Part shown: one piece after another, positions 43,376-49,170 of the stretch
Numbering within the stretch: position 1 is the stretch's first letter
Layout: each line of letters opens with the position of its first letter
Assembly (NCBI GenBank): GCA_028823415.1
Contig: JAPKBL010000026.1
Coordinates: 1-54,709 of the forward strand
Source: Mariniblastus sp.
Lineage (GTDB): Bacteria; Planctomycetota; Planctomycetia; Pirellulales; Pirellulaceae
Direction of reading: 5' to 3'
DNA: 54,709 nt
Translations under genes and position numbers: made by a program
Notes under the pieces: model-generated
Databases searched by the model: none
What the model was told of the DNA's origin: nothing
What the model saw: the letters and a program-made list of their open reading frames with translations, nothing else

Positions 43376-44050
43376 TCAGGCAAAGAAGCCAATCAGCGAT
43401 TGATCTAGCTTAAACTCGATCATGCCCAGCAAGACCAGCAATGCCAGCAATAGTATTATCAGGATTGTGCCGACGAAAATACCGATCCAAAGCCCGTGTT
43501 GAAAGCCAAGCTCAGGTTTTGGGGTATGTTTAAATGTCTTGGCAGGGCGAGACCATCGGTAGGCTGGTGATTTCTTGGCAGGCCGCTTCCGCGCTCGCTT
43601 TTTTTTCCATTTAGGAGCTTCAGGCTGTTGGCGTTTCTTCCCAGATGAATGCCTCGTCGAACTTTTAGCGCTGCGCTGTTTAAAACCCGGGCGTGGCCCC
43701 GGTTGGCGATTGGTTCGGTTACGGGAGCTTGGTTTTTGTTTTGGTTTCGTGTTAGTTTTACCCTCTGTCGAGCGGGTGTTCTGTCGAGAATTTCGTTGTT
43801 TGGATTTCTCTTTTGCCTTTTTTTCCCGTTTTTCAATTCTTTCAAGTTTTGCATCGTAGCGGGCACGTTCGGTAGGGTTGGTTAAGACCCCCAGCGCTGC
43901 GTTGAGTTGACGGGATCGTTTCGCGGCTTTCCGCTGGTTTGGATTGAGATCTGGGTGGTACTTCCGCAGCACGTTCCGATAGGCACGTCGAATTTCTGGC
44001 GCTTCAGCATCGGCGCTGATGTCTAATATTTCGTAATATGACTTAGCCAT
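43376..44050 (-). CDS. J-domain protein with C-terminal membrane anchor
   Basis: Residues 4-70 are a J domain with the invariant HPD (RKYHPDLNPNQ) between helices II and III, so it should stimulate an Hsp70 ATPase. The middle (about 75-170) is extremely rich in Lys, Arg, Ser, Gln and Pro. A single transmembrane helix follows near the end (LWIGIFVGTILIILLLALLVLLGM), with a short tail. There is no Gly/Phe region or zinc finger, so it is a type III (DnaJ-like) protein that probably recruits DnaK to the inner membrane. Its 269-base upstream gap suggests its own promoter rather than cotranscription with the sigma-54 activator gene. Confidence 0.85.
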   Translation of the reverse strand: MAKSYYEILDISADAEAPEIRRAYRNVLRKYHPDLNPNQRKAAKRSRQLNAALGVLTNPTERARYDAKLERIEKREKKAKEKSKQRNSRQNTRSTEGKTNTKPKQKPSSRNRTNRQPGPRPGFKQRSAKSSTRHSSGKKRQQPEAPKWKKKRARKRPAKKSPAYRWSRPAKTFKHTPKPELGFQHGLWIGIFVGTILIILLLALLVLLGMIEFKLDQSLIGFFA

Positions 44051-44319: not shown

Positions 44320-45825
44320 TTAAGTCACTTTACTCCTGTTGGCTTTGGCACGCACCGTTCGACGGTCGAGCCCAAGGACTTCGGCGGCTTTTTCATAGCT
44401 GCCGTATTTTCGATAGGCTTTCGCGCAATATTCGGCCAGCAGTTCCTCAGACGTCAGCGTCACCTCTTCGATGGCCTTTGAAATTTTCGATGGAGCCCCC
44501 GGCATTGTTTTTGAGGGTGGAGCGTAATGGTTGTGGATCATGATATTGCGAACGCATTGCTCGAGTTCTCGCATATTTCCAGGCCACCGGTAGTCCGCTA
44601 ATTCTGAAGATTCAAACCATTTTTCGACTGAGTCCCGCAACTGTTCATGGTCGCCAGGAGCAATGCGTCGACAAATGAAATCGACCAAAAACCCGAACTC
44701 CGAGGGGCGGTCGAGAAGTTGTTCAATCAAGGTTGGAGTGGAAATGATGTCGGAGCAGAGGCGGTAATAAAAATCTTCTCGAAAGGTTCCCTTTTGAATT
44801 TCATCGGCGAGGTTTCGATTGGTCGCACCGATAAATTTTCCCTTAAACGGAAGTGTTTTGTTTTCACCTATCGGTTGAAATTGACGCTGTTGAAGAACAC
44901 GCAATAGTTTTACTTGAATGCTCACATCGAGTTCACCGATTTCGTCTAAAAATACGGTTCCATGTCTGCCTGCCGATTCAAGCCAGCCGACCCGCTTGGC
45001 GACTGCGCCGGTGAAGGAACCTTTTTTATGACCAAATAATTCTGACTCGATGAGAGTGGGAGAAAACGCAGAAAGGTTGAGTGGAAAAAAACGTTCTGAT
45101 TTAACGTCCGTAAACTGTTTTTTGTTTTTATCGAATGGGACGTATTGCGAGAGCCCAACAGCTCGGGCGACGAGTTCTTTGCCGGTTCCCGTGTTGCCGA
45201 CCACTAGAGTTGTGACCTCATTCATGGAGCTATATAGAATTCGTCGACTGCGACGCATATCGTGAGTAAAGATCGATTCCCAGATGTTTGCCCGCAACTT
45301 GCAAATGGGCCACGACCGTCCGATGACGCAGTGAAAAATATTCAAAAATGCGCGTTTGACTTGATAAAGACAGGCGTATATATGCTCCGGTTCATCGTGG
45401 GTTGGGATGGTTCGGTCGCTGAATTTCATCCAGTAATCAACGGAGACGATAAACTGATCCCAAGCTGAAGTTTCATCGGCGGTCTGTTGAGTTTGGTTAA
45501 TGGGTTTTGAGAAATGCTCATAGTACAAGACATACCAAACTAGGTCAGAATAGAGCCGCAGTTCATCGTCAGACGCTTGCGTTGCCGTCAGTAATTTAGT
45601 TCTGATTTGTTCAGTCAAGGAGATCACCGCGGTGGTGAGCTTGACGACGTTGGGGCGATCTAATTCATCGTTCAACGACCAAGACCAAAAAGGCCGGGTG
45701 CTGGGGTCGAACTGATTGCCCAGAGCCGCCTTTTCCAGCTCCACTCGCTTGGGCAAAAACGGATTGGCGAAAGAGATATCCGCAATCGTCTGGGCGAGTG
45801 TTCTCTCGGCATCGGTGAAAATCAT
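44320..45825 (-). CDS. Sigma-54-dependent transcription activator (AAA+ bEBP)
   Basis: The central AAA+ domain is complete: Walker A GNTGTGKE, the loop that contacts sigma-54 reading GSFTGA instead of the usual GAFTGA, Walker B TVFLDEIG, and GATNRNLADEIQKGTFREDFYYRL followed by YRWPGNMRELE. The C-terminus has a Fis-type helix-turn-helix (KAAEVLGLDRRTVRAK). The N-terminal 200 residues (from MIFTDAERTLAQTIADIS) are helical and match no REC, GAF or PAS domain that I can recognise, so the signal is unknown. I chose ATG 45825: the frame is open to 45921, but the extra stretch overlaps the GGTGTACA-type repeats, which read better as a binding site. The gene is divergent from the VIT/vWA gene. Confidence 0.88.
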   Translation of the reverse strand: MIFTDAERTLAQTIADISFANPFLPKRVELEKAALGNQFDPSTRPFWSWSLNDELDRPNVVKLTTAVISLTEQIRTKLLTATQASDDELRLYSDLVWYVLYYEHFSKPINQTQQTADETSAWDQFIVSVDYWMKFSDRTIPTHDEPEHIYACLYQVKRAFLNIFHCVIGRSWPICKLRANIWESIFTHDMRRSRRILYSSMNEVTTLVVGNTGTGKELVARAVGLSQYVPFDKNKKQFTDVKSERFFPLNLSAFSPTLIESELFGHKKGSFTGAVAKRVGWLESAGRHGTVFLDEIGELDVSIQVKLLRVLQQRQFQPIGENKTLPFKGKFIGATNRNLADEIQKGTFREDFYYRLCSDIISTPTLIEQLLDRPSEFGFLVDFICRRIAPGDHEQLRDSVEKWFESSELADYRWPGNMRELEQCVRNIMIHNHYAPPSKTMPGAPSKISKAIEEVTLTSEELLAEYCAKAYRKYGSYEKAAEVLGLDRRTVRAKANRSKVT

Positions 45826-45847
45826 TTTGAACTCGAAATGGTCATTT

Positions 45848-45880
45848 GGTGTACATTCGGGTGTGCATAAATTGTACACC
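45848..45880. promoter_or_regulatory. Candidate activator binding site (three half-sites)
   Basis: GGTGTACA (45848-45855) and GGTGTGCA (45860-45867) repeat directly at 12-base spacing, and TGTACACC (45873-45880) is the exact inverse of the first. They end about 84 bases upstream of the -24 element of the VIT/vWA promoter, a normal distance for a sigma-54 enhancer. The protein bound is inferred to be the adjacent activator. Confidence 0.6.
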
Positions 45881-45962
45881 ACTATCATTGGCTTCAGGTC
45901 TTTGTTTCTTCGATTGTTCATAAGTTGTTTTATTTCAATGGCTTACGTTTTTCTTAATTGGT

Positions 45963-45979
45963 TGGCATGCGGGTTGCAT
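45963..45979 (+). promoter_or_regulatory. Sigma-54 (-24/-12) promoter of the VIT/vWA gene
   Basis: TTGGCATGCGGGTTGCAT has the -24 GG (45964-45965) and the -12 GC (45976-45977) exactly 12 bases apart, close to the consensus TGGCAC-N5-TTGCW. Transcription would start near 45989, giving a 47-base leader to ATG 46036. Confidence 0.8.
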
Positions 45980-46035
45980 AAGTGATTTTCAGCTAATCAA
46001 AGCTCATTTTGAGCGTCACTTTACTGGAGAGTCCA

Positions 46036-48309
46036 ATGCAAGTTTCAAAACAAGAATGGTTGACCGATGAAGAAGGGCAGGGCAACCGAAGGCGGTCTCG
46101 AACCAAATGGATATCGGCCATGCTGCTAACGCTTGTCCTGGGTGTAGTGCCTTCGGGGCTGGCTAATGCGTCGGGCCTGTTGGTAGCGAAGGGGGGTTTC
46201 GGAGGGAGACTGCTGATCAAGGAGCAGATTGTTAATGTCACCATTAACAACGGAATTGCTGTCACTGAGGTAAATCAAATTTTCCTCAATACGGAAAGCA
46301 GAATTGTTGAAGCGCTTTACACGTTTCCTGTTCCTGTCAATGCGAGCGTGAGCAACTTTAGCATGATCATTAATGGCAAGGAAATGATTGGCGAGGTCGT
46401 AGAGAAGAAGCGAGCTCGGCAAATTTATCAAAGTTATAAGAGAACAAAAAAGGATCCGGGGCTGCTCGAGCAGGTGGATTACAAAACGTTTGAGATGAGA
46501 GTTTTCCCGATTCAACCACACGCTGAACAGCATATCAAAGTGGTTTACTATCAACCGTTGGACGTTGATCACGATTGGTCTACTTACGTTTTCCCACTTG
46601 CGACTTCGACGAAGGCTGAAAACGAAAAAACGTCAGGCAAGTTTGCGTTGACTCTTGATATCAAGAGCGAAATTCCGGTGAAGAAGATCACCAGTCACTC
46701 GCATCCTAATGAGTTTGTCGTTGTCAATCATTCAAGTGATTACGCACGAGCAAGCATGGAAGTTAACGAGGGTGATTTAAGTCGGGACATCGTAATTGCT
46801 TTCCAGTCAAAGCGAGCCAAGACTGGAATTGATCTAATTACCTCGAAGCATGCTGGCGAGGATGGCTACTTTCTCATGTCGCTAACCGCTGGCGAGGAGT
46901 TAGAAAATACAGCCGGTGGTATGGATTATGTGTTTGTCGTCGACATCTCGGGCAGTATGAGAAACGACGGAAAGTTAATGCTTTCTCAGGGGGCGGTGGA
47001 AGCATTCGTTAATTCCCTTGGTGAAGAAGACAGATTTGATGTCATGGTTTTCAATAATGCCCCCAAGATGCTGTTTAGCAAATTGGCAGAGGTCAATGTA
47101 GAAGCGAAGAAAAAGTTGACGGAATTTCTTGGTGAGCAATATGCCAAGGGCGGCACGGATCTTCGCCCAGCGATGAACGCTGCCTACCGTTATAAGCAAC
47201 CGGATCGTGAGCTTAACGTTGTCGTATTGTCTGATGGAATGACCGAGGCAGGCGGCCAAAAAGAGTTACTTGGTTTGATCGCAGACGCTCCTTCCAGTTC
47301 GAAAGTATTTTGCGTTGGGATTGGAAACGAAGTAAACCGGCCGTTACTGAAGCAGTTAGCCGAGGATGCCGGTGGTTTAGCGACTTTCATTTCCCATGAA
47401 GATGATTTCATTCGGCAAGCTGATGCTTTTCGGCGAAAGTTGGTCCATCCGGTGGCAACAGATCTCGTGTTGTCCATTGACGGTGTGCCGGTTTATGACA
47501 CACTTCCTGGAGCACTTCCCAACCTGTACCACGGTAAGCCCATTCGAATGATTGGGCGATACAAAGACTTTGGTCAAGGCGATATCACGCTCAAAGGAAC
47601 TGTGATGGGCCGTCCGTTTGAGCAGAGTGTCAGTTTCGATTTTCCCAAGCTCGACGCGGACAACCCGCAAATTGATCGAATGTGGGCTTGGTATCGAGTC
47701 CAGGGATTGATGGACGAGATGCGAAAAAATGGAGATTCTCCAGACCTCGTAAATGAGATTGTCAATTTGTGCGAAGGCTATTCTATCGTGAGCGAGTACG
47801 CTTCTTTTATCGTTCTCGAAAATGACAAAGAGTACAAGCGATGGAAAATTGACCGACGCAATGCGACGAGAATCCAGCGAGATCGAGCCGCTCGAAACAA
47901 GCTTGACGAATCGCTGAAGCAGTTGCGTGAAAATTCGATGGCCAACCTAGGCCCGATTGAAAGCGATTCAAAAAGCAAGGAAGTCGCGAAAACGGCAACG
48001 AAGCCGACGGCACCCAAAAAGCGGGTTGCGAACAATGCTCCCCAGCGAGGACAGGATTTGAACTTTGGAACTCAGCCTGTTTCAACGCGCCCCAATCCAC
48101 CAAAACGATCAAGCTCGAGCTCTAAGACGCCGGCGAAATCTAACAGTTCGCCTTGGCGCTCGACGAGCAATCGTAGCAGTGGCGGTGGCGGTGGAGGAGG
48201 AGGAGCAATTGATCCGATTACTGGGCTGATTGCTGCTGGAATGGCAGGCGTGGCAGCCGCGCGACGAAAGCGAAAAGGAGTTGCAAAAAAGGATGCCGAG
48301 GCTTCGTAA
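46036..48309 (+). CDS. Secreted VIT/von Willebrand A protein with Gly-rich C-terminal sorting-like signal
   Basis: An N-terminal basic stretch and a membrane segment (WISAMLLTLVLGVVPSGLA) export the protein. Residues about 50-180 are a VIT domain (NVTINNGIAVTEVNQIFLN, VEALYTFPVPVNASV, VEKKRARQIY). The von Willebrand A domain follows (about 297-480) with a complete metal-ion site: D303-x-S305-x-S307 in DISGS, T374 in GGTDL and D400 in SDG. After a low-complexity Lys/Ser/Pro linker it ends with eight glycines (716-723), a hydrophobic stretch DPITGLIAAGMAGVAAA and RRKRK. This three-part tail resembles GlyGly-CTERM signals cut by rhombosortase. I chose ATG 46036 because GGAGAG lies six bases upstream. 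It is probably a surface adhesin or ligand-binding protein under sigma-54 control. Confidence 0.88.
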   Translation: MQVSKQEWLTDEEGQGNRRRSRTKWISAMLLTLVLGVVPSGLANASGLLVAKGGFGGRLLIKEQIVNVTINNGIAVTEVNQIFLNTESRIVEALYTFPVPVNASVSNFSMIINGKEMIGEVVEKKRARQIYQSYKRTKKDPGLLEQVDYKTFEMRVFPIQPHAEQHIKVVYYQPLDVDHDWSTYVFPLATSTKAENEKTSGKFALTLDIKSEIPVKKITSHSHPNEFVVVNHSSDYARASMEVNEGDLSRDIVIAFQSKRAKTGIDLITSKHAGEDGYFLMSLTAGEELENTAGGMDYVFVVDISGSMRNDGKLMLSQGAVEAFVNSLGEEDRFDVMVFNNAPKMLFSKLAEVNVEAKKKLTEFLGEQYAKGGTDLRPAMNAAYRYKQPDRELNVVVLSDGMTEAGGQKELLGLIADAPSSSKVFCVGIGNEVNRPLLKQLAEDAGGLATFISHEDDFIRQADAFRRKLVHPVATDLVLSIDGVPVYDTLPGALPNLYHGKPIRMIGRYKDFGQGDITLKGTVMGRPFEQSVSFDFPKLDADNPQIDRMWAWYRVQGLMDEMRKNGDSPDLVNEIVNLCEGYSIVSEYASFIVLENDKEYKRWKIDRRNATRIQRDRAARNKLDESLKQLRENSMANLGPIESDSKSKEVAKTATKPTAPKKRVANNAPQRGQDLNFGTQPVSTRPNPPKRSSSSSKTPAKSNSSPWRSTSNRSSGGGGGGGGAIDPITGLIAAGMAGVAAARRKRKGVAKKDAEAS

Positions 48310-48340
48310 GACGAGTGTGTTGATGAGAGGAATCCAGGTC

Positions 48341-48372
48341 GCCGCTCTTTCGCTCTGGGGTGAGAGAGCGGC
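48341..48372 (+). promoter_or_regulatory. Intergenic hairpin between the VIT/vWA and rhomboid genes
   Basis: GCCGCTCT (48341-48348) pairs perfectly with AGAGCGGC (48365-48372), and two weaker hairpins follow (AGTGA/TCACT near 48373-48391, and AGAC/GTCT near 48402-48414). There is no T-tract, so RNA processing or stability control between the two genes is more likely than termination. Confidence 0.4.
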
Positions 48373-48468
48373 AGTGACCTTCAGGATCACTTTGCTTCGA
48401 GACCGAGAGTCTCTGCGATTCCGTGTTTACGTTGATAACTTGCGTGCAAATTTAGAATCGAGAAAACC

Positions 48469-49104
48469 ATGTACCAGTTAATGAAAGAAATTCCGATTAC
48501 TTTGACCGTCGCGGTCGCCACGGTGGTCGTATTTTTGATTCCCGGTCTTGAGAGTTTGCTCGATTTTCAAACCAATTTACCAGTTTTTCATCAACTGATT
48601 CAGCTTTTCGGTTGTCACATGGCCCACTGGTCGTTTGATCATTTAGTTTGGGATCTGGTGATGTTTGTCACGATGGGGGTCATTTGCGAGCGAAGAAATT
48701 CAATTCAATACGCCATCGCATTGGCGTTGTCAGCGATTACCATTCCCTTGCTTGTGTCTTATTTCGCGTTCGATGTAAGTTCTTATCGGGGGCTCAGCGG
48801 ACTGGACACGGCTCTGTTTGGATTGGCGGTCTTGTACTTGGTTGACAGTTCAATTCGAGAGAAAAATTGGGCAGGCGTTGGGATGTATGCCTTTCTGTTT
48901 GCCGGAATGATGGGAAAAATAGCTTACGAATGCTTTGTAGGTGGCACGCTGTTCGTCAACAGCGAGGGATTTACTGCGGTTCCGATTGCCCATCTTGTGG
49001 GTGCGGTCATCGGCACGGCGATAGGGCTGTTTGAGATCGCACGCAGGCCTCCGGCGCAGCTCATGTGGCGACGTGTTTTTTACCAAACACGAGTGGCTGC
49101 CTAA
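48469..49104 (+). CDS. Rhomboid-family intramembrane serine protease, rhombosortase-like
   Basis: The 211-residue protein has about six hydrophobic helices. The rhomboid catalytic pair is visible: Ser110 in the GLSG motif and His175 in IAHLVGAVIG. An earlier helix carries HWSFDHLVWDLVMF, like the HxxxHLxxN element of the family. The small size and the HLxGA context resemble rhombosortase, which cleaves GlyGly-CTERM proteins for surface attachment. It lies 159 bases after the VIT/vWA gene, whose C-terminus fits such a substrate, so a dedicated pair is inferred. The start ATG 48469 has GAGAAAA just upstream; ATG 48481 is possible. Confidence 0.78.
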   Translation: MYQLMKEIPITLTVAVATVVVFLIPGLESLLDFQTNLPVFHQLIQLFGCHMAHWSFDHLVWDLVMFVTMGVICERRNSIQYAIALALSAITIPLLVSYFAFDVSSYRGLSGLDTALFGLAVLYLVDSSIREKNWAGVGMYAFLFAGMMGKIAYECFVGGTLFVNSEGFTAVPIAHLVGAVIGTAIGLFEIARRPPAQLMWRRVFYQTRVAA

Positions 49105-49106
49105 TA

Positions 49107-49170
49107 GAGCATTCATGTTGGAGAGCATTCATGTTGGAGAGCATTCATGTTGGAGAGCATTCATGTTGGG
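49107..49170. repeat. 16-bp tandem repeat, four copies
   Basis: The unit gagcattcatgttgga repeats at 49107, 49123, 49139 and 49155, the last with one change in its final base. It begins two bases after the rhomboid stop codon. Sixteen bases is not a codon multiple, so it is not protein coding. Confidence 0.97.

Follow-up and report, generated by a model that had tools for sequence, protein, structure and literature searches.

Does a rhomboid protease encoded beside a secreted VIT/vWA protein serve to sort that protein, and is the pair switched on by a regulator of its own? This question is raised by a locus of the planctomycete Mariniblastus sp. (family Pirellulaceae), in contig JAPKBL010000026.1, whose 54,709 nucleotides were analysed as one stretch (the window). 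A first reading of the sequence (the original prediction) had placed four parts at 44320-49104: a sigma-54 enhancer-binding activator, a -24/-12 promoter with an upstream site, a VIT/vWA protein with a Gly8-hydrophobic-RRKRK tail, and a rhomboid with GxSG and HLxGA motifs. All four parts are indeed found in the window, by Pfam models and by sequence, with corrections to the activator start, the VIT/vWA start, the significance of the promoter, the make-up of the site array and the extent of the tail. We consider it likely that these genes form a dedicated sorting pair of the rhombosortase type with its own sigma-54 switch, in which the VIT/vWA protein would be produced in response to a signal, have its tail cut and become anchored in the cell envelope.

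The VIT/vWA protein, its tail and the adjoining rhomboid gene

The VIT/vWA gene lies at 46036-48309 on the forward strand (VIT, PF08487, 105 bits; VWA_3, PF13768, 78.1 bits). Its open reading frame (ORF) opens at a TTG at 46009, and by inspection the ATG at 46036, with GGAG shortly before it, is the likelier start. A putative signal peptide ending in LANA is recognised by inspection only, and the DxSGSM-type metal site (of the metal ion-dependent adhesion site type) is retained in 52/52 full-length VIT/vWA ORFs checked. The putative sorting tail (48181-48306, forward strand) starts with eight glycine codons from 48181, continues with AIDPITGLIAAGMAGVAAARRKRK, and ends with ten more residues, GVAKKDAEAS; the glycines thus run into AIDP, a hydrophobic stretch and the basic RRKRK. 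This succession of glycine motif, hydrophobic stretch and basic residues at the extreme C-terminus has the form of a GlyGly-CTERM tail. The rhomboid gene follows at 48469-49104 on the same strand.

The arrangement was followed through three samples, namely 149 genomes of the same family as the source (rhomboid present in 29, at 30 loci), 294 genomes spread over the phylum (rhomboid over the cut-off of the rhombosortase model TIGR03902 in 24), and a scan of named genomes that kept 80 of 147 confirmed loci. Since the TIGR03902 profile at E <= 1e-5 also matches 14/14 control genomes, none of them over the cut-off, only over-cut-off loci were counted in the phylum sample. In the family sample, 29 of the 30 rhomboid loci have a whole or partial VIT/vWA gene directly upstream on the same strand. 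At the thirtieth (L079) the contig ends 46 bases away, and the 29 include a 3-kb contig (G123) on which a 106-codon C-terminal VIT/vWA piece stands beside a shortened activator. Across the phylum a VIT/vWA gene adjoins 20/24 rhomboids over the cut-off; upstream DNA amounts to just 178 bases in one of the four loci without it and to 816 bases in another. Nine of the 80 named loci end before the VIT/vWA gene, leaving 71 testable, several with the gene end only, and at all 71 a Gly-tailed VIT/vWA gene or its end stands beside the rhomboid (a 72nd tail pair, L255, proved to be an unrelated downstream ORF and was dropped). A VIT/vWA gene was near none of 20 low-scoring control rhomboids. The linkage between rhomboid and VIT/vWA gene is far beyond chance, and the grouping first proposed for the window is a real conserved cassette. 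At L153 (10525-12083), which has no VIT/vWA gene, the rhomboid adjoins a 313-residue ORF of another kind with a Gly-rich, hydrophobic and basic tail, possibly another target of the enzyme.

The partner tails share a pattern of a glycine motif, usually with AIDP next, a hydrophobic stretch and basic residues. It was present on 29/29 partners in the family sample (28 by the strict pattern), on 20/23 in the phylum sample by a GG test (15 strict) and, by the strict pattern, on 71/71 named pairs; the three phylum partners without GG read GAGA[IL]DP. None of 20 VIT/vWA paralogues, the next-best matches, had either the tail or an adjoining rhomboid. The original prediction had asked whether the tail goes with the rhomboid, whether relatives keep the rhomboid linked to VIT/vWA genes and whether the linked homologues keep the tail; in all three samples this is the case. 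A profile of the tail gave one strong match per genome in 13/13 carriers; in four genomes that lack the rhomboid no match improved on 0.0145. Most carrier genomes' own tails are in the profile and a strong match is expected there, so that the informative part of this result is that no second match appears; G087 has one at 0.004. On the single strong match per carrier we rejected a many-target system. A looser DNA pattern of the tail matches several times per genome, and its only other match in the source genome sits inside another conserved protein.

A close VIT/vWA orthologue (at least 734 bits; next best 239) is present in 20 family genomes, and the rhomboid adjoins it in 18. In G128 the contig stops 20 bases past the gene, and in G065 the orthologue (L122, 6403-8493) is without the rhomboid and also without the Gly/AIDP motif. 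Its tail is PEP-CTERM-like (15.2 bits; cut-off 16), and the sorting signal may have changed there. We rejected a clean swap of sorting tails in G065 and keep it as a hint, since the tail stays under the cut-off and an exosortase was not found in this genome, which is 86% complete, either with TIGR02602 at E <= 0.001 or with PF09721 (best E 0.22). G065 also carries 20 mostly sub-threshold GlyGly-CTERM-type matches. Three of six genomes of the same genus (G067, G134 and G144) lack rhomboid, VIT/vWA orthologue and tail all together, as if the pair were gained or lost as a unit, and an activator relative is still present in two of the three. The nearest named relatives, among the 80 of 147 loci kept, are uncultured Pirellulaceae and Mariniblastus metagenome-assembled genomes. 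Records with the pair are mostly Planctomycetota, with some labelled Verrucomicrobia, Opitutus or Kiritimatiellota; single metagenome-assembled genomes labelled Proteobacteria, Elusimicrobia, Paceibacterota or Nealsonbacteria may be misassigned.

The rhomboid and its active site

The rhomboid matches PF01694 at 34.1 bits, and its nearest NCBIfam model is that of rhombosortase, TIGR03902. An AlphaFold model from a 34-sequence alignment has a mean predicted local distance difference test score (pLDDT) of 91.5, with E. coli GlpG as its best structure match (E 3.2e-05), and on this rhomboid fold we rejected a sortase or exosortase as the partner enzyme. Catalytic Ser110 (YRGLSGLDT, codon 48796-48798) and His175 (HLVGA, codon 48991-48993), both on the forward strand, are invariant in the 34 aligned rhomboids, bearing out the two motifs seen at the outset; His53, His58, Gly108, Gly111, Lys150, Glu154, Phe162, Gly178 and Gly182 are likewise invariant. 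Two ORFs of 823 and 905 residues (L097, 7703-10174, and L155, 944-3661) contain the rhomboid within them, through either fusion or read-on across GC-rich DNA.

The active-site signature is YRGLSG[LIV]D[TS], with Thr or Ser four residues after the catalytic serine (Ser+4) and Asp at Ser+3 in 44/49 sequences of the window clade. The named-genome scan already had the active-site motif in its search pattern and is therefore no measure of how frequent the motif is. In a tree of 71 rhomboids, the 44 D[TS] sequences and five variants form one group (99/94), and an enclosing group (99/99, 56 rows) adds seven others, three of which (L143, L146 and L151) have His at Ser+4; 15 ordinary rhomboids fall outside this 56-row, rhombosortase-containing group. 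In a 14-sequence alignment, Lys150 and Glu154 occur in five window-type sequences, in the three His-type sequences and in L145, and are not both present in four ordinary rhomboids or in L144. The same alignment has Asp62 in the five window-type sequences, L143, L151 and L144, and Asn in L145, L146 and the four ordinary rhomboids.

These relationships bear on the fate of the VIT/vWA protein after the cut. Removal of the tail may simply shed the protein into the periplasm or medium, with nothing attached at the new end. Known rhomboids other than rhombosortases act as plain proteases, and the active site here is unlike that of the rhombosortases, where attachment was inferred, which speaks for shedding. 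Yet the enzyme groups with rhombosortases in the tree and has Lys150 and Glu154 in common with the three His-type sequences, and the tail is tripartite in the manner of anchoring signals. On balance we regard shedding as unlikely and favour cleavage followed by anchoring.

The sigma-54 activator, the -24/-12 promoter and the TGTACA sites

The activator is encoded divergently, on the reverse strand. Its ORF in full spans 44320-45921; homology with relatives begins only at about Met33, and the gene is therefore likely to be 44320-45825 (501 residues), with about 210 bases from its start to the likely VIT/vWA start. The predicted protein has a helical N-terminal domain, an AAA+ domain with a GSFTGA variant of the loop (by inspection) and a putative Fis-like C-terminus. 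PF00158 (Sigma54_activat) is matched at 162.7 bits against a cut-off of 20.2, identifying the sigma-54 interaction AAA+ domain, and the Fis-type models stay under their cut-offs (PF18024, 15.7 against 27 bits; PF02954, 13.3 against 22 bits). The N-terminal domain (45214-45825, reverse strand), presumably the sensor, is kept in 30 sequences, all with an invariant NPF, and is all-helical in an AlphaFold model (mean pLDDT 85.3) that has no match in the PDB (best E 1.3). Pfam and NCBIfam scans of the N-terminal half gave no match, and no receiver domain was found in Pfam. rpoN is present in the source genome.

The only zero-mismatch -24/-12 site in the window, TGGCATGCGGGTTGCA (45963-45978, forward strand), points toward the VIT/vWA gene. 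With one mismatch allowed, the window holds 6 such sites against 3.5 expected; the promoter alone is thus not significant and its conservation counts instead; it scores 11-12 of 12 both in the window and in the four relatives nearest to it. Further upstream lies an array of TGTACA-like half-sites spaced 11-12 bases, whose outer arms TGGTGTACA and TGTACACCA span 45847-45881 and which, from sequence and conservation, is the presumed binding site of the activator. A strict 11-base triple-array model reached P <= 0.05 in only 11/17 activator-linked intervals, because the spacing is 11 or 12, and was replaced by half-site counting.

A divergent activator stands beside the VIT/vWA gene at 17 of the fetched loci, from eight families and with the window included, and at 34 of 57 testable named loci (5 were too short and 18 lacked the VIT/vWA start). 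L298 is counted among the 23 loci without an activator, though an activator-like piece stands at its contig start. Cultured, non-pathogenic carriers in the named set, Rhodopirellula rubra, Neorhodopirellula pilleata and Roseimaritima sediminicola, have the pair with no activator beside it. The named and fetched sets overlap (L235 and the contig of G100 are equal in length), and the 120 pooled loci amount to 100 non-redundant ones. Exact TGTACA occurs in 14/17 activator-linked intervals of the fetched loci (17 sites against 0.55 by shuffling) compared with 1/34 VIT/vWA upstream regions without an activator, and in 30/34 linked intervals of the named loci (1.7 by shuffling) compared with 2/23 without. 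Promoter scores of at least 10 of 12 were reached at 19/34 linked and 5/23 unlinked named loci and at 9/17 linked and 6/32 unlinked fetched loci, interval lengths differing; 8/445 random 300-base pieces score as high. In 24/34 named linked loci the last half-site lies 89-117 bases ahead of the best -24 match. The activator, promoter and upstream site that had been read from the window alone are therefore recurrent companions.

The activator may nonetheless be a mere neighbour that controls itself or other genes, with transcription of the VIT/vWA and rhomboid genes independent of sigma-54. The pair does stand without an adjoining activator at 23 of the 57 testable loci, and 16 activator relatives are found elsewhere, beside genes of other kinds, 7 of them with TGTACA upstream and 6 with a promoter score of at least 10; because these outside relatives have sites beside other genes, the TGTACA sites may serve the activator gene alone. 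Set against this are the direction of the promoter, which faces the VIT/vWA gene at near-maximal score in the window and its nearest relatives, the greater frequency of high promoter scores where the activator is present, and the array's position 89-117 bases ahead of the promoter in 24/34 loci. A mere neighbour is quite improbable to us, and we retain a sigma-54 switch acting on the pair.

The outside relatives (L123-L138), some with TGTACA and a -24/-12 site, look like members of a broader family of regulators that share one site. As some of them carry TGTACA beside other genes, activators of this type probably recognise TGTACA in general. A scan of ten divergent neighbours of these relatives left three without any match; the others matched radical SAM proteins (two of them, one under cut-off), a CDP-alcohol phosphatidyltransferase, an M20 peptidase, a fatty-acid desaturase, a P450 and an alpha/beta hydrolase.

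A fourth cassette gene was sought among the 100 non-redundant loci and rejected, only genus-level neighbours and shadow ORFs recurring; since these loci were chosen for having the VIT/vWA and rhomboid genes, only the activator count (44/100) is informative. Just downstream of the activator, at 43376-44050, the window encodes a DnaJ-domain protein whose C-terminus is predicted to be hydrophobic; this protein is found at the same place in 7 of the 100 loci. Starting two bases past the rhomboid stop, a 16-base unit, AGAGCATTCATGTTGG, is repeated in tandem in four perfect copies (49106-49169).

A proposed sorting route and its relation to known systems

Several results weigh against a dedicated rhombosortase-type pair under its own sigma-54 switch. 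The window rhomboid scores 80.2 bits against the TIGR03902 cut-off of 84, and the His reported at Ser+4 for virtually all rhombosortases is missing, Thr114 standing there with Asp113 before it; as the enzyme lacks these two tested marks of the family, we call it rhombosortase-like. Four relatives of the window type score 84, 90.1, 118.7 and 141.4 against the same model, and one sequence bearing the rhombosortase His scores 92.6. The tail stays below TIGR03867 (13.6 against a cut-off of 19.7 bits) and is absent from the own-genome matches to TIGR03501 at E up to 10. The pair can do without the switch, given the 23 of 57 loci that have no adjoining activator; exact TGTACA is missing from 3/17 and 4/34 linked intervals, and the best promoter score is just 8 of 12, common in random DNA, in 7/34 linked loci. 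Finally, the VIT/vWA and rhomboid genes, presumably co-transcribed, stand 160 bases apart. On the side of rhombosortase membership, co-occurrence with and adjacency to a GlyGly-type target are found at 71/71 named loci. That the two genes are functionally unrelated, brought together by chance or operon neighbourhood, is barely credible: four of the 24 phylum loci lack a VIT/vWA neighbour (two of them with the short upstream DNA given above), but the linkage holds at 71/71 named loci against 0/20 controls and beside 18/20 close orthologues, G065 has lost the Gly/AIDP tail along with the rhomboid, and at L153 another Gly-tailed protein takes the place beside the enzyme.

We therefore still favour a dedicated sorting pair, which might work as follows. 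Bound to the TGTACA array that lies between the divergent genes, the activator would respond to a signal received by its helical N-terminal domain and set sigma-54 RNA polymerase to work at the -24/-12 promoter. The VIT/vWA gene and the rhomboid gene that follows would then be expressed together on demand. The activator probably controls its own gene too, because the array sits 22 bases from the activator start. The VIT/vWA protein would be exported and held in the inner membrane through its tail, and the rhomboid would then cleave near the Gly-rich/AIDP junction. By analogy with the closest tested precedent, Vibrio cholerae VesB, which is cut by rhombosortase at its GlyGly motif and bears a glycerophosphoethanolamine-containing group on its last glycine (PMC6219818), the new C-terminal glycine would probably be joined to a lipid-derived group. 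Held at the envelope in this way, the VIT/vWA protein may serve as a metal-dependent adhesin or scaffold.

A wider proposal, which we find evenly poised, is that these enzymes, marked by Asp at Ser+3 together with Thr or Ser at Ser+4, constitute a class of sorting rhomboids of their own, specialised for the Gly-AIDP tail of a single VIT/vWA partner in planctomycetes and their relatives, and often equipped with its own sigma-54 activator, a sensor of unknown fold and a TGTACA array, such that target and enzyme would be made only on signal. With one target, one enzyme and one switch, the module could allow the rhombosortase reaction to be studied free of competing substrates, and would put to a direct test whether sorting requires the His at Ser+4. 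It would extend to a rhomboid system the pattern known from PEP-CTERM, sigma-54 control of C-terminally sorted proteins. It further suggests a way in which proteins may be anchored in the planctomycete envelope, and its presumed sensor domain, with an unmatched fold, invites a search for the signal.

How much of this is new? The original prediction stated that no described system has this combination. For the pair this does not stand: it is of the rhombosortase/GlyGly-CTERM type, published since 2011 (Haft and Varghese 2011, PMC3237569). That paper describes adjacent rhombosortase/GlyGly-CTERM pairs, dedicated ones in genomes with a single target, among them those of Rhodopirellula baltica SH 1 and Opitutus terrae; it also describes VIT/vWA proteins ending in GlyGly-CTERM, PEP-CTERM or LPXTG. 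It was the only paper that the full-text literature searched yielded on rhombosortase in planctomycetes, and the three-gene cassette was not recognised among the full-text matches listed, a body of literature with subscription papers mostly outside its scope. PMC2754498 cites Studholme and Dixon (2004), whose survey in silico of the enhancer-binding proteins of Pirellula may include an earlier mention of the activator. The protein-protease pairing is thus already known, as is sigma-54 control of C-terminally sorted proteins in the case of PEP-CTERM. New as far as the literature searched are the activator and site array as a frequent third member, the YRGLSGxD[TS] active site replacing the rhombosortase His, and the breadth of the one-to-one pairing of target and enzyme.

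Set beside the rhombosortase/GlyGly-CTERM system, the locus shares a rhomboid with catalytic Ser and His, a target tail of glycine motif, hydrophobic stretch and basic residues, one-target adjacent pairs and VIT/vWA proteins as targets. It differs in having Thr or Ser at Ser+4, preceded by Asp, instead of His, in a window enzyme and tail that fall under the curated cut-offs, in a glycine motif that runs into AIDP, and in a sigma-54 activator that is often part of the locus and that the available text does not mention. In the marine proteobacterial sortase target (TIGR03788), too, a VIT/vWA protein bears a sorting tail at its C-terminus and has its enzyme encoded alongside, but there the tail is LPXTG and the enzyme a sortase; the window protein scores 245.4 against that model's cut-off of 551.65 bits, and Pfam found no sortase among the six neighbouring window genes scanned. 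The regulatory part is closest in plan to PrsR, which governs genes for PEP-CTERM proteins through sigma-54 and an upstream motif (Haft et al. 2006, PMC1569441): in both systems an activator, an upstream motif and a -24/-12 promoter precede genes for C-terminally sorted proteins. PrsR (TIGR02915), a response regulator, has PrsK as its kinase and acts on many targets, whereas the activator described here, without a receiver domain in the Pfam scan, scores 176.5 against that model's cut-off of 502.6 bits, matches it only from residue 232 on, and is encoded beside a single target whose enzyme is a rhomboid rather than an exosortase.

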